IMG/VR virus record: IMGVR_UViG_3300027793_000052
Span: 248,001 to 312,000 of that record
From: a virus
Length of the DNA: 64,000 bases
Strand: one strand, 5' to 3'
The notes below the pieces were generated by a model. It was not told the DNA's origin, did not search any database, and saw only the letters and a list, made by a program, of their open reading frames with translations. This document shows positions 9,673-49,859 of the stretch, one piece after another (within the stretch, counting starts at the first letter, position 1; every line of letters starts with the position of its first letter). Made by a program: the position numbers and the translations under genes.

Positions 9673-10701
9673 ATGTCAGAAAGTAAAGAAGCAACAAAAA
9701 AGTCTATTGGTAAAAAACAGTTTTCATTAGACAATTTAAAAAATAAGTTTAGTACGAAAACTAAATACAAGGAAACAGAGTATTTTGATTGTGGTGAAGC
9801 ATTTCACAAAGCATGTGGTATACCAGGGCCTGTTGTGTGTGGTATATCTATGTTTTTAGGCCACAGTAATAGTTCTAAAACCACAGCTTTAATTAAAGCT
9901 GCCGCTGATGCACAAAAGAAGGGTCATTTACCTGTTTTCATAATAACAGAAAGAAAATGGTCTTTTGATCATGCTAAAGAGCTTGGTTTAGATTGTGAAA
10001 AAAATTCAGAAGGTGAGTGGGACGGATTCTTCTTATTCCGTGATGATTTTGATTATATCGAACAAATCACTGATTATATGAATGATTTGTTAAATGCTCA
10101 AGAAAAAGGTGAGTTACCACATAGTTTAGCTTTCTTTTGGGACTCTGTAGGTTCGGTACCTTGTAAAATGACCTTTGAAGGTAAAGGTGGTAAAATGCAT
10201 AACGCATCAACTTTAGCTGATAAAATAGGTCTAGGTATTAGTGGAAGAATATCCAAGTCAAAAAAACAGGATTACCCATATGAAAACAGTTTAATAATAG
10301 TGAACCAACCATGGGTGGATTTACCGGATAACCCATTTGGACAACCAGAAATAAAGGCTAAAGGTGGTGAGGCAATTTGGTTGGCATCTAGTTTAGTGTT
10401 TTTATTCGGTAATCAAAAGAAGTCTGGTATTTCACATATAATGGCAACCAAAGATAAAAGGAAAGTTAGTTTTGGTATACGTACTAAAGTATCTGTGTTA
10501 AAAAACCATATAAACGGTTTAGGTTACAAAGATGGTAAAATAATAGCCGTACCACATGGTTATATTGAAGATACTACAGAAGCTGTGGATCAATATAAGA
10601 AAAACTATTCTGAATTTTGGAAAGAAAAATTGGGGGCAGTAGATTCAGACTTTTCTTTGGAAGAAGATAAAGAAGGTGATTATCAATTATTTGAAGACTA
10701 G
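9673..10701 (+). CDS. uvsX: UvsX-like RecA-family recombinase
   Basis: An ATP-dependent strand-exchange protein that would act on gp32-coated DNA. The P-loop GHSNSSKTT (residues 63-71) departs from GxxxxGK[ST] in the same way as T4 UvsX, which as I recall also lacks the last Gly. ITERKW follows and LAFFWDSVGSVP forms the Walker B region. The length of 342 residues is normal. Its position after gp32 and before the helicase block supports the call. The next gene is a homing endonuclease. Confidence 0.85.
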   Translation: MSESKEATKKSIGKKQFSLDNLKNKFSTKTKYKETEYFDCGEAFHKACGIPGPVVCGISMFLGHSNSSKTTALIKAAADAQKKGHLPVFIITERKWSFDHAKELGLDCEKNSEGEWDGFFLFRDDFDYIEQITDYMNDLLNAQEKGELPHSLAFFWDSVGSVPCKMTFEGKGGKMHNASTLADKIGLGISGRISKSKKQDYPYENSLIIVNQPWVDLPDNPFGQPEIKAKGGEAIWLASSLVFLFGNQKKSGISHIMATKDKRKVSFGIRTKVSVLKNHINGLGYKDGKIIAVPHGYIEDTTEAVDQYKKNYSEFWKEKLGAVDSDFSLEEDKEGDYQLFED

Positions 10702-10730
10702 TTTTTTAGGACTTTTAGACACTGGGTGTA

Positions 10731-10738
10731 TATTTATA
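10731..10738 (+). promoter_or_regulatory. TATTTATA motif (candidate phage promoter)
   Basis: Exact octamer only 4 bases before the ATG of the homing endonuclease gene. A transcript started from it would have almost no leader. Confidence 0.45.
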
Positions 10739-10742
10739 ATAT

Positions 10743-11579
10743 ATGTTTATAAAAAATTGTCATATATGTAATTGTGAGATGGTATATAAAGATAAAAGGT
10801 CTTTTATGAAATCCACAAAAAATAATACACCATGTTTGAGTTGTAATAGAAAAGGTGATAAAAACCCCTTTTATGGTAAAAAACATACCAAAGACAGTAT
10901 GTTAAAAATGGTGGAAACATCTAAAAATTCTGAAAAAAGAAAAGAATATTACAACAAAATAAAGACAGAAGAGTTTAGAAAACAATTGTCAGAAAAATTT
11001 AAAGGTAGTGATAACCCCAACTACAATAGGGGTTATTACAAATCCTGGGTTGAAAAGTACGGGGTGGAAGTAGCTAATGACATGATGACCGAGTTTAAAA
11101 AAATACAATCATTATCATCATCTGGTGAAAATAATCCCATGTTTGGTAAACCCTCACCAAAAAAATCTGGTAATGGTTGGGGTGGGTGGTATAAGGATTT
11201 TTATTTTAGAAGTTTATTGGAATTATCTTACCTGATTAATATCATCGAAAGGTTTAATATTAATTGGGAGTCTGGTGAACAAGACAAATATAAGATTCAG
11301 TACGAAATAGACGGTAAGAAAAGGAATTATTTTCCTGATTTTATCTTAAATAATAAATACATTATAGAGTGTAAACCGAAAAAACTGTGGAATACACAAG
11401 TTAATAGTATTAAAAGAAAATACGCTGAAGAATTTTGTTCTATGAACGGTTTTAAATTTAAAATGGTGGAACCTAAAAAGATATCTTTTACTGAATTAGA
11501 AGAAATGATTAAAAATGGTGAAATTATTTTAAACGAAAAATATACTAATAGATTTAATAAACTTATACTTAATAAATAA
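10743..11579 (+). CDS. Free-standing homing endonuclease, PD-(D/E)XK type with NUMOD3 repeats
   Basis: The N-terminus has a CxxC...CxxC zinc finger (CHIC and CLSC). Three NUMOD3-like DNA-binding motifs follow: GDKNPFYGKKH, GSDNPNYN and GENNPMFGK. The C-terminal third carries a nuclease core FPDFILNNKYIIECKPKK, in which D, E and K are the likely metal and catalytic residues. It would cut DNA at a homing site, probably in a related phage's replication operon, and spread by repair. It sits between uvsX and the exonuclease gene and has its own TATTTATA motif. It is probably a mobile gene rather than part of the replisome. Confidence 0.8.
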   Translation: MFIKNCHICNCEMVYKDKRSFMKSTKNNTPCLSCNRKGDKNPFYGKKHTKDSMLKMVETSKNSEKRKEYYNKIKTEEFRKQLSEKFKGSDNPNYNRGYYKSWVEKYGVEVANDMMTEFKKIQSLSSSGENNPMFGKPSPKKSGNGWGGWYKDFYFRSLLELSYLINIIERFNINWESGEQDKYKIQYEIDGKKRNYFPDFILNNKYIIECKPKKLWNTQVNSIKRKYAEEFCSMNGFKFKMVEPKKISFTELEEMIKNGEIILNEKYTNRFNKLILNK

Positions 11580-43663: not shown

Positions 43664-43870
43664 ATGGGATTTAATAAAAGATATGTTAATAAAAAAATAA
43701 TTAAAACTGTTTTAAGTGAAGACGGTATTGATGCTTTGATAAATTTTATAAAAAAACCTGACGCTCTAATTATTGAGGATGTTTATTCACAAAAAGTTTG
43801 TGACATTATTTTGGACAACCAAAGTGGTGACGATATTTTAAACAAAATATTAAATATAGATAATGGCTAG
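43664..43870 (+). CDS. Hypothetical protein, 68 aa
   Basis: A basic N-terminus (MGFNKRYVNKKIIK) and acidic C-terminus. It is co-transcribed with the RecB-like nuclease, which starts 8 bases before this gene ends. I prefer the ATG at 43664 to a TTG at 43646 because a TATTTATA motif lies between them. Function unknown. Confidence 0.6.
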   Translation: MGFNKRYVNKKIIKTVLSEDGIDALINFIKKPDALIIEDVYSQKVCDIILDNQSGDDILNKILNIDNG

Positions 43871-44612
43871 AAAAAGAGATAGCGTTGTTTGGTTGGAACC
43901 TAAAGAACATGTTTATATACATAAAGTTACAAATGAAAAATTTAAATCTGTAACAGGTGTTTTATCCATGTTGGAACCTGAATTTAACTCTGAAGAAGTT
44001 GCATTAGCTATTTCTATGCAAGACCCCTCCAAGAAGAAGGAACAATATCAGAATATGTCTCAAGAGGAGATATTAGCCGAATGGAAACGTATTAACGATG
44101 AGGCTAATGAATATGGTACACAAATCCATGAAATAATGGAAAGGTATCTATTGGCTGACAAAATTTATATACCACAAGATGATTATGAAAGGGAATTAAT
44201 AACTAAATTTCAGGAGATAGATCCAATGACAAAAGGTACAATATACCCAGAAACTATTTTATTCTCTGAAAAACACAAATTGGCAGGTACTGCTGATATT
44301 ATAGAGGATTGTGGTGACTACTTTAATGTATGGGATTGGAAAACTAATAAAGCTTTCAGATTTATTTCGGAATATAACCATTGGTTAAATCCACCTGTAT
44401 CACACTTATCAGATTGTCAATATAATGTATACGCTTTACAATTATCAATCTACGCTTACATGTTTCAAATGGAAACTAAAAAGAAAGTGGGTAGATTGGG
44501 TATATTCTATTATGATAAAGAACAAGGATTTAAATTAATACCACTACCTTACATTGGTCTTGAGGCAAAGGCCGTACTAGATTATTGGGTAAATAAGAAC
44601 AACAAAAAATAA
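43863..44612 (+). CDS. PD-(D/E)XK nuclease, RecB/Cas4-like exonuclease family
   Basis: A 249-residue nuclease with the full RecB-type set: H89 in GTQIHEIMERYL, E130, D145 in LAGTADII, and D158-W-K160 in FNVWDWKTNK. The family's YALQLSIYAYMF helix follows. It would degrade or resect DNA in recombination or host-DNA breakdown. No Cys cluster for an iron-sulphur site is seen, so it is not Cas4 in the strict sense. It overlaps the upstream small gene by 8 bases. Confidence 0.8.
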   Translation: MARKRDSVVWLEPKEHVYIHKVTNEKFKSVTGVLSMLEPEFNSEEVALAISMQDPSKKKEQYQNMSQEEILAEWKRINDEANEYGTQIHEIMERYLLADKIYIPQDDYERELITKFQEIDPMTKGTIYPETILFSEKHKLAGTADIIEDCGDYFNVWDWKTNKAFRFISEYNHWLNPPVSHLSDCQYNVYALQLSIYAYMFQMETKKKVGRLGIFYYDKEQGFKLIPLPYIGLEAKAVLDYWVNKNNKK

Positions 44613-45098: not shown

Positions 45099-45656
45099 TT
45101 AATCTCTAACACGAAATTCAATAGAAAGACGGTCAAATCCCATCCAACCTTTAACAATTATCCAACGATATTCAAGGTTTGATTGAGGAATAAAACCGTC
45201 TTTTAGTTGTATACCAATATTAGATTGTGAAATATTATCCAATATTTCTTGACCAACATTCAATCTAACACCATTAATAAATTTATTATAATTGGTGACA
45301 GCCAAATCATAATCCCCATAACCAAATATTTGAATAACTTTATTCACAGCATCATGACTAGCTACCTTAAAAATAGGTTCAGAATATAAAGTCCAATCCT
45401 TTAATTTATCTTTATTATATTTTTTAATTTCAACACCATCACCATTTGGTGTAATTGCGTCATACTTATGAAAGACACTACCTTCTATGGGATAAAACTT
45501 TGTTGGGTCAAAATCAACCGAAGATATTTTTTGAAAATTAGAACGACCACTTCCTGACCACTTAATTCTAGGTGACTTAGAAACACGACGCCAACCTAAG
45601 GTCTCACATATGGAATATTCAAAATCCACACCAGTTTTATTTCTACTTTGTCCCAT
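45099..45656 (-). CDS. PD-(D/E)XK nuclease-like protein, the only reverse-strand gene
   Basis: 185 residues. D66 in HKYDAITP and E76-x-K78 in GVEIKKY give the D-x9-ExK arrangement of PD-(D/E)XK nucleases, and E13 lies in an N-terminal helix as in many restriction-like folds. The central RIKWSGSGRSNFQK stretch is basic and may bind DNA. It is convergent with thioredoxin and divergent from the DruA-like gene. Its opposite orientation suggests separate control or recent acquisition. It may be a restriction-like or resolvase enzyme; the fold call is moderate. Confidence 0.6.
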   Translation of the reverse strand: MGQSRNKTGVDFEYSICETLGWRRVSKSPRIKWSGSGRSNFQKISSVDFDPTKFYPIEGSVFHKYDAITPNGDGVEIKKYNKDKLKDWTLYSEPIFKVASHDAVNKVIQIFGYGDYDLAVTNYNKFINGVRLNVGQEILDNISQSNIGIQLKDGFIPQSNLEYRWIIVKGWMGFDRLSIEFRVRD

Positions 45657-45718: not shown

Positions 45719-46867
45719 ATGGCTGAAGTATTCGATACAAAATTAACACCTGAAGAAACAGAATATTTAACCAACAGATTGATGGGTTTTTATAGTGAGT
45801 TGGAAACTATTCAGGATTATTTCTTAGAACGTAAGAAAGAGAAGGTGGTTGATATTAACCATGATAAGTTCACAAAACTTATGTTCGATGATTATGGTAT
45901 CGAACCTAAAGATATGAAATTCGAGATTGAAATAATAGATGGTAAATTATTTAATCCAGCAACACAAATAATCACATCACTACCACTTGAATCTCAAATC
46001 GGTAGACAAATAATGATAGGTGTTAAAGAAACAAATACCAATAAGTACGTTGGGTTTATTCGTTTAGCTTCACCTGTTTTATCTATTAAACCACGTAATG
46101 ATTTATTTCAGGGGTTTAAAATCACAGCTAATGAAGTGAACAAATATATGATTAACGGTGCTATCATTGTACCCGTACAACCATTTGGTTATAACTATTT
46201 GGGTGGTAAGTTGTTGGCCTTGATTTGTTGTTCACATGAGGCAAGACAAATGTTAAAAGATAAATACGGTGATAAGATAGATACGGTATTTATGGAAACC
46301 ACATCACTTTATGGTGATATTAAAGGGGTTAGTCAATATGACGGTCTTAAACCTTTTATGAGATATGGTAGTATGACAGAATCCGACTTATTTTTATTCC
46401 CTAATGACGATGTTTTTATGGAAATTAGAAATGTGTTAAGACCATTATACGGTAAACCTGAATGGGGTGGTTCTATGGTTGACCCTGGTCCATCTGGCCC
46501 TAAGATGAGAGAATTTAATAAAATAATCTCTATATTAAAAAACCACTTAAGGGTTCAAAATCCACAGAAATATAAAGAATTTCATGACTTTACTAAGTCA
46601 CATATGAAAGCTAAAACCAAAAAAAGGTATTACTACTGTAATTACGGTTATGATAATATTGGGGCATATATATCTAGTGACGGTAAAGTACCTTTAGTTA
46701 AGAGAGATAATTGGGATAGATACCATTTAACTCACATGATTGATTGGTGGAAGTCAAAAGCACAAAACAGATACGAGACTTTAAAAAATGATGGTAGATT
46801 AAGAAACGATTTGGAGATATACACATTGGATAGGATTGAATCTGGTAATGTTGACATGGTAAGATAA
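45719..46867 (+). CDS. DruA/DUF4338-like protein A
   Basis: 382 residues. The core reads VGFIRLASPVLSIKPRN, then PFGYNYLGGKLLALICCS near 157, then ETTSLYG and SQYDGLKPF, in the order I recall for DUF4338 proteins, the family of DruA in the Druantia defence system, also found in phages. A C-terminal YYYCNYGYDN stretch aligns with YWCDRG in the paralogue at 48099. The biochemical role of this family is unknown to me. It starts the cassette after a divergent gap and is TAATG-coupled to the next gene. Confidence 0.6.
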   Translation: MAEVFDTKLTPEETEYLTNRLMGFYSELETIQDYFLERKKEKVVDINHDKFTKLMFDDYGIEPKDMKFEIEIIDGKLFNPATQIITSLPLESQIGRQIMIGVKETNTNKYVGFIRLASPVLSIKPRNDLFQGFKITANEVNKYMINGAIIVPVQPFGYNYLGGKLLALICCSHEARQMLKDKYGDKIDTVFMETTSLYGDIKGVSQYDGLKPFMRYGSMTESDLFLFPNDDVFMEIRNVLRPLYGKPEWGGSMVDPGPSGPKMREFNKIISILKNHLRVQNPQKYKEFHDFTKSHMKAKTKKRYYYCNYGYDNIGAYISSDGKVPLVKRDNWDRYHLTHMIDWWKSKAQNRYETLKNDGRLRNDLEIYTLDRIESGNVDMVR

Positions 46868-47070
46868 TGTTAGAATTTAAAAATCCAATACCAGTAGTAG
46901 TTGAAGATAACAAAGAAGGTTATGCCATATATGTAACAAATGGCGGTTCATTTGAGAATGATATATGGTGTGTGGTTCATTGTGACGGCGGCATTGTTAG
47001 ACATTACAGAAGTGACCAAATAAAAATACATAATAATTTAACTTTAGATATAAAAAAACATGGACAGTAA
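46867..47070 (+). CDS. Hypothetical protein in DruA-like cassette, 67 aa
   Basis: A compact beta-type protein: EGYAIYVTNGGSFENDIWCVVHCDGG, then VRHYRSDQIKIHNN. The layout looks like a small SH3- or KOW-like barrel found in T4-like phages. TAATG coupling to the DruA-like gene and an 11-base overlap with the coiled-coil gene indicate joint expression. No function known. Confidence 0.65.
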   Translation: MLEFKNPIPVVVEDNKEGYAIYVTNGGSFENDIWCVVHCDGGIVRHYRSDQIKIHNNLTLDIKKHGQ

Positions 47071-47461
47071 AAAAGTATCAAATCTATTAAGGGCTGTAGC
47101 AGACCTTATGGATAACACAACAGAAGTTGTACAAGAAACACAAAAAGATATGGTTAAAACCATAGAAAAGAACACAAATGACTATTTAGAACATTCTTTA
47201 AAACTTATGAGAAAGATTGAAGATAATGACACAATTAGAGCTTATAAGAATAAAATGGGTAAGCAAAATAAAGTTTTGTCTGAAGCCTTACTAGAAATAC
47301 AAAAGTTACGTGAGAATGCTATAGAAGACATGATTAGAGATGCTAAAGGCATATCCAACCCAATAGACTTTTTTAATAAAACTATCACTAATAGTGAAAA
47401 ATTAGGTAGACAGTTTGTTAAAGAAGGTGAAATTTTAAATAAGGCTATTACACAAGAATAA
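47060..47461 (+). CDS. Coiled-coil protein in DruA-like cassette, 133 aa
   Basis: Almost entirely helical and charged, with heptad-like spacing from VSNLLRAVADLM through QETQKDMVKTIEKN to KLRENAIEDMI. No Cys and no membrane segment. It lies between a small beta protein and a P-loop ATPase, so it may act as their scaffold or small subunit. A terminase small subunit-like role is conceivable but unproven. Confidence 0.6.
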   Translation: MDSKKVSNLLRAVADLMDNTTEVVQETQKDMVKTIEKNTNDYLEHSLKLMRKIEDNDTIRAYKNKMGKQNKVLSEALLEIQKLRENAIEDMIRDAKGISNPIDFFNKTITNSEKLGRQFVKEGEILNKAITQE

Positions 47462-47464
47462 TTT

Positions 47465-48109
47465 ATGTACTGTGAGGTATCACCAAGACAATCTGGTAAA
47501 ACTACAAGGTTGATAACAGCCTTGGTGGAATACCTACGTAACAATATACGTAATAACCATTATGTTGCTTTAGTCACACCTAACTCTAATATAACTAAAG
47601 ATTTACTTAATCTTATTAGAGATAGGTTGGCTATAGAATGTTCTTATGATGTAGGTATGGAATGGCCTAGTGATGGTATATACCGATTGGTTGATGATTA
47701 CCATATGAAACACATCATAACAAAAACAAGGTTTGGTGAGTATAGAAATGAACCTAATATGTGGTTTTTCGATGAGTTTGCCTCCATACCAATGGATAAA
47801 GTTTTACACCCAATTAACCAAACCCTAATAACAAATGCCTATTATTGTACAACACCATCAAATGGTATTAACTTAACAACAGATACTATAGTTGAGTATT
47901 GTCGAGATAATAATATAAACATTCAATTCCATAACCCTTGGACACCTAATAGACTTAGGGAACAAGGTGGTTTGGAACCTTATATTAGAAATCATGTATT
48001 GGGTAGTTGGGTAGAATATATGGCATCAAACGGTTTTAACATAGAAGAGTTAAAATCAGAAATCATTTCAAAATATATTAAAAAACATCGTTTTATTAAT
48101 GGTAAATAG
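47465..48109 (+). CDS. P-loop ATPase, terminase/helicase-like
   Basis: 214 residues with Walker A SPRQSGKTTRL (residues 6-16) and Walker B MWFFDEF near 98-104. These resemble the ATPase domain of large terminases, whose Walker A is often PRQxGKT. The domain stops after about 200 residues, so there is no room for the usual nuclease domain or a second RecA domain. It could be a truncated terminase-like ATPase or the motor of the DruA-like cassette. It overlaps the second DruA-like gene by 11 bases. Confidence 0.7.
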   Translation: MYCEVSPRQSGKTTRLITALVEYLRNNIRNNHYVALVTPNSNITKDLLNLIRDRLAIECSYDVGMEWPSDGIYRLVDDYHMKHIITKTRFGEYRNEPNMWFFDEFASIPMDKVLHPINQTLITNAYYCTTPSNGINLTTDTIVEYCRDNNINIQFHNPWTPNRLREQGGLEPYIRNHVLGSWVEYMASNGFNIEELKSEIISKYIKKHRFINGK

Positions 48110-49049
48110 AGAACAGTTAAAACATGATTTGTTAAATTTTACCTTCTTAACACAGGAAGAACAAAAGGCTAAACAACCCAAGAAGTACGATTCAATATGG
48201 ATTAATGAAAGTATTGTAGATGATCCAATAAACATTAAACCATTATTAATACCTGTGGATTCCACTAGTAAACTATGGAGGGAGTGGAAAAGTGTGGAAG
48301 AACATGTGTCTAGTTTCCCATTTAGACGTAGTCCTGGTAGAAATAACTATTTCCTTGTTAAAAACGAGTATGATGGTAAAAATCTAGGTATTTTAGATGT
48401 GGCTGCCGATTTCTTAGCATTAGGACCAAGAGATAGACACATTGGTTGGAACAAAGATGAAAGAGTTGTTAGAAATAGAAATATTGCTAATATATCTGTT
48501 TGTGTACCTACTAGACATTTTGGTTATAACATGGCAGGGGGTAAGTTATTAACATTGTTAGCTGCCTCTAATTTTGTTGGTGACCATTGGAAATTAAAGT
48601 ATGGTGATGATTTGGCTGGATTAACTGTAACTTCCTTATACGGTAGAGGTGTACAATACAATAGATTAAAACACTTTAAATATTTAGGTCTAACACAAGG
48701 ACAAGGTACAGTACAGATAGACGAGGACCTATATCAACAAATGAGGTTGGTTGTGGAGGAGGAAGAAGGTGAAATACCTGGAGGTCAATTTACAAGTGGT
48801 AAAAACTCAAGAATAAATATTATTAGAAAGGCTAGTGATTACTTAAATATTGACGCTAGGGTTTTAACAACCCACGGTAATCGTAGAGGGATTTATTGGT
48901 GTGATAGAGGTGATAACACTTCAGAGTTTTTAAGAGGTATTGACAAAGACTTCAAGGTTAAAGAAGGTTTGGATATAGAAACACTAACAAACCATTGGAG
49001 AGAAAGGTGGGCCTATAAACGTATTGAAAATGTTAAAACTAAAGTTTAA
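48099..49049 (+). CDS. DruA/DUF4338-like protein B
   Basis: 316 residues, paralogous to the protein at 45719. Shared landmarks are LDVAADFLALGPRDRHIGW, HFGYNMAGGKLLTLLAAS near 141, VTSLYGRGVQYNRLKHF with a following LG, and a C-terminal GIYWCDRGDNT. The RDRHIGW motif, common in DUF4338 proteins, is much clearer here than in protein A (PRNDLFQGF), so protein A may be the diverged copy. The ATPase gene upstream overlaps it, so the two are probably translated together. Confidence 0.6.
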   Translation: MVNREQLKHDLLNFTFLTQEEQKAKQPKKYDSIWINESIVDDPINIKPLLIPVDSTSKLWREWKSVEEHVSSFPFRRSPGRNNYFLVKNEYDGKNLGILDVAADFLALGPRDRHIGWNKDERVVRNRNIANISVCVPTRHFGYNMAGGKLLTLLAASNFVGDHWKLKYGDDLAGLTVTSLYGRGVQYNRLKHFKYLGLTQGQGTVQIDEDLYQQMRLVVEEEEGEIPGGQFTSGKNSRINIIRKASDYLNIDARVLTTHGNRRGIYWCDRGDNTSEFLRGIDKDFKVKEGLDIETLTNHWRERWAYKRIENVKTKV

Positions 49050-49070: not shown

Positions 49071-49859
49071 ATGATTAAATCTGTTGTACACTGTGCTGAT
49101 ATACACCTACGTTTGTTTAAAAGACATGAGGAATATACAGAACAATTTGAGAAGTTTTATAAAGAATGTGAAGAAATACAACCTGACAGGATTGTTATTG
49201 TTGGTGACTTAGTACATTCTAAGAATCAAATGACACCTGAACTTATTTATATGGTTACAACCTTTTTAAATAATTGTTCAAAAATAGCTATGACTGTTAT
49301 TACATTAGGTAACCATGATTTCTTGGCAAACAATTTAGATAGGATGGATGCTTTATCACCCATCATATCCACAATGGATAACCCTAATATCTTATTTTTA
49401 AAACACACAGGCACATACAGAGATGAAAATGTAGTTTGGTGTGTTTATGGACATATGGAAGGTTCTGAGAGACCTAATATAGAAGAGGCAAGAGAATTAT
49501 ATGGTGATGATGTGACTTATATAGGTTTATATCATGATCCTTTGGTTGGTTTAAAAACTAACGTTGGGTTTGAATTTGAGGATGGTAAAGATATCTCTAT
49601 TTTTGAAGGTTGTGATATGGTTATGTGTGGTGATATCCACAAGTATCAGGTAATGAAACACCGTAAAACACCAATTGTAATGCCATCATCAATGATTCAA
49701 CAAGACTTTGGTGAAGACCCATATAACCACGGTTATGTGTTATGGGATATCACAACAAAAGAACATGAGTTGAAGAGATTACCAAACGATTATGGGTTTT
49801 ATACTTTTAAAATTAAATCTATTGAGGATATAGAAACAGAGTCAGAGAGATTAGTATGA
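49071..49859 (+). CDS. 47: Recombination endonuclease subunit, T4 gp47 / SbcD-like
   Basis: The Mre11-family nuclease half of a complex that processes DNA ends. Phosphoesterase motifs are present in order: D10-x-H12 (HCADIHL), GDLVHS with D46, GNHD at 80-83, YGHMEGSE and CGDIHKYQ. At 262 residues it is shorter than T4 gp47 (about 340), so the DNA-binding cap is reduced. The gp46-like partner lies 1 kb downstream, separated by two small genes. It overlaps the next gene by ATGA. Confidence 0.88.
   Translation: MIKSVVHCADIHLRLFKRHEEYTEQFEKFYKECEEIQPDRIVIVGDLVHSKNQMTPELIYMVTTFLNNCSKIAMTVITLGNHDFLANNLDRMDALSPIISTMDNPNILFLKHTGTYRDENVVWCVYGHMEGSERPNIEEARELYGDDVTYIGLYHDPLVGLKTNVGFEFEDGKDISIFEGCDMVMCGDIHKYQVMKHRKTPIVMPSSMIQQDFGEDPYNHGYVLWDITTKEHELKRLPNDYGFYTFKIKSIEDIETESERLV

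Follow-up and report, generated by a model that had tools for sequence, protein, structure and literature searches.

We analyzed a window of 64,000 nucleotides (bases 248001-312000 of the 317,983-base virus record IMGVR_UViG_3300027793_000052, which is linear, may be incomplete and represents a T4-like phage), in which five plus-strand open reading frames (ORFs) at 45719-49049 include the genes for two DruA/DUF4338 proteins, DruA-1 (45719-46867, 382 amino acids) and DruA-2 (48099-49049, 316 amino acids). Our preferred reading, to which we give a probability of about 0.6, is that both proteins are GNAT acyltransferases, distantly homologous to Mom, that acylate bases of the phage DNA, probably for protection. 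The computational analyses presented here address the family, the predicted fold, the kinship with Mom and the genomic setting of the two proteins.

Both proteins exceeded the 27-bit cutoff of the Pfam DruA/DUF4338 family (PF14236), DruA-1 with 55.9 bits (E=5e-15) and DruA-2 with 102.3 bits (E=3.6e-29), and both matched the DruA models of PADLOC (E=1.4e-7 and E=9.6e-27, respectively), so the family assignment made by the first-pass annotation, a reading of the sequence without database searches, stands. A PDB sequence search with both proteins returned no informative match. DruA-1 matched PHROG_19197 over its full length (E=4.5e-90) and is the orthologue of a single-copy replication-block gene of many T4-like marine phages; relatives with 30-38% identity were found in 31 phage records, nearly all of them Synechococcus and Pelagibacter T4-like phages, and relatives occur in at least 590 viral contigs. 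In cyanophages the order is gp44-DruA-gp62-regA, with DruA-1 usually the lone copy in the replication block, and in HTVC008M it is DNA polymerase-DruA-uvsX-gp41. Over 94 anchors the neighbors of DruA-1 were gp44 (33), gp62 (27), regA (27), gp45 (27), gp41 (26) and uvsX (20), with core genes named according to annotated members and sequence. Cultured phages with a DruA-1-type gene include HTVC008M, S-SSM7 and S-PRM1, and Mom was not detected in the five cultured DruA-carrying phages tested. One PHROG_19197-type relative is annotated as "DUF4338 domain-containing protein"; the annotation "methylcarbamoylase mom" on a relative in S-SCSM2R was treated as a lead and not used as evidence.

The two copies had also been described as a duplication, of which the presence of two copies holds and a recent origin does not: DruA-1 and DruA-2 are 26% identical and fall in separate parts of a quick tree, where DruA-1 belongs to one clade with a support of 100. 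In that tree DruA-2 of the window and two close relatives form a long branch near bacterial Druantia-type proteins; the marine DruA-2 clade, whose genes are located after gp46 and peptide deformylase, is separate. With such branch lengths the placement near Druantia-type proteins is unsure, and orthology of the window DruA-2 with the marine DruA-2 beside gp46 was not supported. A functional partnership with the peptide deformylase encoded upstream of marine DruA-2 was considered and dropped, since this is a common and hence uninformative phage gene. Tandem DUF4338 pairs were also seen in four other loci (L016, 4635-6891; L053; L097, 2280-4708; and L098, 969-3478; L-numbers label the compared loci or contigs), of which L097 and L098 carry the pair between gp41 and DNA polymerase and, filed under Thermoplasmata, are probably misbinned phage contigs.

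A GNAT fold for DUF4338/DruA, taken alone, is highly probable according to structure prediction. From an alignment of 57 sequences, AlphaFold (AF2) produced a model of DruA-2 with a pLDDT of 84.9 and a pTM of 0.79, and nearly all Foldseek matches of this model in the PDB were proteins of the GNAT/AHL-synthase fold, with E-values that are weak (0.02 at best) and consistent with one another. In GNAT enzymes the pyrophosphate of coenzyme A (CoA) is held by the loop between strand beta4 and helix alpha3. At the corresponding position DruA-2, in which strand 129-137 and helix 147-155 are the predicted beta4 and alpha3, has the conserved stretch VPxxPxGYNxxGGKLL, several columns of which are invariant (VPTRHFGYNMAGGKLL, residues 136-151, nucleotides 48504-48551 of the plus strand), and this glycine-rich stretch may therefore bind the donor as a CoA loop does. 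Strong fold similarity to DruA-2 was also observed for giant-virus proteins (A0A3G4ZXG3, A0A5K0UAJ3 and A0A3G4ZRA1) of Faunusvirus (1e-21), Yasminevirus (2e-17) and Dasosvirus. DUF4338 was already named a GNAT domain in 2024, in a DndF fusion for which protein targets were suggested (PMC10853773), and the structural likeness of cyanophage proteins to DruA is likewise published, a DruA-like fold having been noted in six Synechococcus phages (PMC12774648). The kinship with Mom and the slot exchange described below were not found in the open-licence literature searched, and an earlier statement elsewhere is possible.

Mom is a DNA-modification enzyme. Neither DruA-1 nor DruA-2 matched the Mom family PF25680, and the connection to Mom runs through bacterial DUF4338 sequences with the motif ETFVDPxRFxGTCYRAANW. 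In hhalign comparisons these aligned with Mom with a Prob of 95 (E=2.8e-8, score 60) and with viral DUF4338 with a Prob of 97 (E=6e-11), and in controls of the Mom comparison 29 unrelated neighbor families gave E-values of at least 0.0026 and reversed Mom gave 0.74. The Mom hidden Markov model also directly matched the bacterial DUF4338 ORFs of three loci (L199, L197 and L198; E 2e-5 to 1.5e-4). When Mom was represented by a narrow alignment, limited to the genes beside DruA, the E-value against bacterial DUF4338 was no better than 0.0022, and the link therefore depends on the diverse Mom alignment. The aligned motifs of bacterial DUF4338 and Mom are HYLG/HYSK and FVD..GxCYRAANW/WAD..GxVYQGSNF, and a tyrosine at the corresponding place is invariant in each of the Mom, bacterial DUF4338 and viral DUF4338 sets; in DruA-2 the alignments equate it, within the invariant pair Gln186-Tyr187 (48654-48659, plus strand), with the invariant tyrosine of Mom and that of CYRAANW. 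Viral DruA/DUF4338 proteins thus appear, from these alignments, to be distantly homologous to Mom through bacterial DUF4338. By eye, bacterial ETFVD-type DUF4338 appears fused to the start of an ISAs1-like transposase (L198, 1513-2532; L199, 3-794), suggesting that some transposons carry a DUF4338 domain.

DruA and Mom also occupy the same places in T4-like genomes. A scan of 80 Mom loci together with the DruA loci, which gave raw counts without a null model and with some near-identical contigs included, found that the slot between the ATPase gene of this locus and gp47 holds DruA-2 in three loci (the window, L003 and L004) and Mom in three (L006, L254 and L255), and Mom follows the ATPase in two further loci (L107 and L109/L110). 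The Mom copy of L006 matches Pfam Mom PF25680 (E=4.5e-53), a PHROG "Mom-like" family (1.7e-41) and PDB 8bv8 (5.5e-14). Between DNA polymerase and uvsX, DruA-1 was found in 4 loci and Mom in 10; between gp44 and a glycosyltransferase-like gene, DruA-1 was found in 18 loci and Mom, directly before DruA-1, in 2; and in 7 loci a Mom gene separates gp47 from gp46, near the place of marine DruA-2. Mom directly adjoins DruA-1 in L151 and L154, the order in L151 being gp45-gp44-Mom-DruA-1-glycosyltransferase-like-Mom-Mom. A strict rule of either DruA or Mom, never both, was ruled out by 13 loci that hold both families, and the phage of the window itself has a separate Mom gene at 10350-10919 of the record. 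Two further observations concern these neighborhoods. A protein of 453-461 amino acids directly after DruA-1 in 18 of 96 loci (for example L151, 3359-4732; L130, 2373-3758; and L149, 4160-5521) is weakly glycosyltransferase-like (PF00534 E=1e-3 in L151), and may glycosylate DNA in cooperation with DruA or Mom. In addition, three homing-type endonuclease-like ORFs of 430-560 amino acids in the phage of the window (L246-L248; 107294-107701 on the minus strand and 145266-145676 and 233368-233769 on the plus strand of the record) appear to have a C-terminal Mom/GNAT-like domain with weak PF25680 matches.

From these comparisons we infer a scheme in which an acyl-CoA-type donor would bind the glycine-rich loop between beta4 and alpha3, a nucleobase amine would attack the acyl group, and the invariant tyrosine (Tyr187 in DruA-2), in a role taken from GNAT enzymes generally, would protonate the leaving thiolate. 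The acylated product would shield the phage DNA against host or rival nucleases. Retained in the replication block of many T4-like phages, DruA-1 would work on newly made DNA, and DruA-2 would add a second mark, as Mom would in sister phages. In the weakest step of the scheme, the ATPase would serve as a DNA-remodelling helper that opens bases to its GNAT neighbor in the manner of the helicase-like domain in TmcA/NAT10.

Several points weigh against DNA acylation by the DruA proteins. Many GNATs have protein or small-molecule substrates. The Foldseek E-values are weak, and the Mom structure 8bv8 was absent among the 50 matches listed for DruA-2. Direct hhalign comparison of viral DUF4338 (176 proteins) with the Mom profile gave no signal, so that the link requires the bacterial bridge, a set of 6-7 sequences. 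Neither the viral nor the Druantia-type proteins keep the aspartate that is invariant in Mom (ADG; FVD/E in the bridging sequences), and the chemistry may therefore differ; for the same reason the relation between DruA and Mom is one of kinship and not of PF25680 membership. The co-occurrence of both families in 13 loci, the possibility that slot sharing reflects a gene-exchange hot spot rather than equal function, and the presence of related ATPases with neither DruA-2 nor Mom beside them (L111 and L120) count in the same direction.

The most serious alternative, which we consider unlikely, is that the two DUF4338 proteins are GNATs with protein substrates, such as the host RNA polymerase, the replisome or defence proteins, and that their position among replication genes reflects regulation of that machinery. 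Substrate is not set by fold alone, there are phage GNATs, Rac among them, with protein targets (PMC7824862), and the targets suggested for the DndF-fused GNAT domain are also proteins (PMC10853773); the specific profile link is nevertheless to Mom, a DNA modifier, and the repeated occurrence of Mom in the same slots as DruA or next to it, like the glycosyltransferase-like neighbor, points to DNA. Less probable still is that recombination hot spots between core genes produce the slot sharing as a side effect and that DruA and Mom, despite their common fold, have unrelated substrates. These gaps do also hold HNH or homing endonucleases and small genes of unrelated kinds (L008 and L120), yet DruA and Mom, which are remote homologues, replace each other in two or more distinct slots and stand side by side in others.

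We regard as improbable a phage-borne, Druantia-related defence module against rival phages in which the ATPase takes the place of the DruE helicase, an idea close to the inter-phage defence that the first-pass annotation had offered as one of three options, beside packaging and genome modification. The PADLOC match of DruA-2, its YNRL motif of Druantia-type DruA and the adjoining possible nuclease gene fit such a module. Against it, DruA-1 stands alone in the cyanophage replication block, the five-gene set is not conserved, and no match to the DUF1998/MZB helicase (PF09369, DruE-type) was found across the 318-kb record, itself possibly incomplete, whereas in the positive control, a Meiothermus plasmid whose DruA is PADLOC-grade, a DUF1998 helicase is encoded near that gene (PF09369 1.8e-17). 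Because no DruE-like helicase is present, the locus was ruled out as a Druantia system. Of the three options, genome modification is the one that agrees with our preferred reading of DNA acylation, as does the DNA-related setting that the annotation had recognized.

The ATPase (47465-48109, plus strand, 214 amino acids) had been read correctly as a P-loop protein: Walker A (SPRQSGKTTRL) and Walker B (WFFDEF) are present and invariant across four close sequences, and family matches are weak (AAA_14 E=0.009; Terminase_6N E=0.027). Its AF2 model has a RecA-like core (pLDDT 75.9) with weak Foldseek matches to RecD, Mfd, TmcA/NAT10 and the ATPase domains of the P74-26 and D6E terminases, and very weak sequence matches were obtained to Rep and T4 gp17 (E=0.1). 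The window ATPase matched nothing in phage records, and its L006 relative matched only short protein stretches of Acinetobacter phages and one Pseudomonas phage. In L111 a related ATPase lies beside a RecA-like gene without DruA, and the pairing with DruA-2 or Mom is therefore a feature of the window clade. The terminase-like matches are what could favor a packaging or terminase-accessory unit whose DruA proteins mark DNA for packaging, which is very improbable given that the ATPase has no recognizable nuclease domain, that its neighbors (gp47, gp46, primase) serve replication and recombination and are not head genes, and that a complete terminase large subunit, with an intein-like insert inside its ATPase region, is located at ~126.6 kb of the record (L250). 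This separate gene also rules out the ATPase as part of a split terminase, and we infer instead an accessory role.

The tight overlap of the five genes reported initially is real (45719-46867, 46867-47070, 47060-47461, 47465-48109 and 48099-49049), but they are not one conserved unit, and the proposed five-gene machine dissolves in relatives. The gene for a small beta protein of 67 amino acids (46867-47070, plus strand, cluster c354), which has no convincing Pfam or PHROG family, has no counterpart among six close relatives (L003, L004, L006, L107, L110 and L120), and that for a 133-amino-acid coiled-coil protein (47060-47461, plus strand, cluster c61), also without a Pfam or PHROG family, is found among them only in L003 and L004, both carriers of DruA-2. 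The ATPase lies near DruA-1 in all six, being short and diverged in L120. The recurrent core thus consists of DruA-1, the ATPase and the slot before gp47 with DruA-2 or Mom.

T4-like replication and recombination genes in the window, recognized from Pfam, PHROG and sequence clusters, include those for a primase, an exonuclease, gp47 and gp46-like proteins. The slot after the ATPase is closed by the gp47/SbcD-like nuclease subunit (49071-49859, plus strand; PF00149 E=2e-12; PHROG_100 E=6e-21), and a PD-(D/E)XK exonuclease in the same syntenic block is encoded upstream (43863-44612, plus strand; PF12705 E=1e-7; PHROG_298 exonuclease E=4e-25). The reverse-strand gene adjacent to DruA-1 (45099-45656, 185 amino acids), which is syntenic in the clade and which the initial reading called a nuclease, matched no Pfam or PHROG family; because its D...E-x-K pattern (D66, E76 and K78) is invariant across aligned relatives, a PD-(D/E)XK nuclease of no known family is plausible, if unproven. 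Secreted or surface-type ORFs in the phage of the window and its relatives (L107, 6701-9059; L110, 6400-9441; and L222, 6-1400) resemble by eye gliding/type IX secretion C-terminal domains, hinting that the host is perhaps a member of the Bacteroidota.

More broadly, and tentatively, the DUF4338/DruA proteins, which occur in bacterial Druantia and in hundreds of contigs of T4-like phages, could constitute a second large nucleobase acyltransferase family. Phages would use one or two copies, interchangeably with Mom, to produce an acylated base not described so far, in some lineages together with a small RecA-like partner ATPase, and Druantia DruA would then modify DNA or act on its modification. 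To our knowledge, the chemistry of DruA within Druantia is not known, and Druantia would thereby gain a concrete biochemical hypothesis that makes the chemistry of this defence protein testable. If DruA-like proteins are Mom-like DNA acyltransferases, a widespread DNA modification of ocean phages has been overlooked, since many marine T4-like phages carry DruA-like genes, and the cultured carriers make the claim checkable.

Among known systems, Mom (PF25680; phage Mu Mom, PDB 8bv8) shares with the window DruA proteins remote homology, the GNAT superfamily, the invariant tyrosine and the T4-like slots, and differs in that the DruA proteins lack a PF25680 match and the Mom aspartate and have a larger C-terminal part. 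The PHROG_19197 proteins of T4-like cyanophages and pelagiphages are like DruA-1 over its full length, and their phages usually have DruA-1 alone in the replication block, whereas in the window the ATPase and DruA-2 come after it. TmcA and NAT10 are RNA cytidine acetyltransferases with a helicase-like domain, and what the window locus would have in common with them is the idea of an ATPase that assists a GNAT in modifying a nucleobase; in the window, however, the two are separate proteins, and the matches of the ATPase model to the TmcA/NAT10 ATPase part (E ~0.01-0.09) are no better than those to helicases and terminases. Finally, Druantia DruA is alike in its Pfam and PADLOC matches and in the YNRL motif that DruA-2 has in common with Meiothermus DruA, whereas the window, without a DruE-like DUF1998 helicase or any other recognized Druantia gene, sets its DruA proteins among phage replication and recombination genes.

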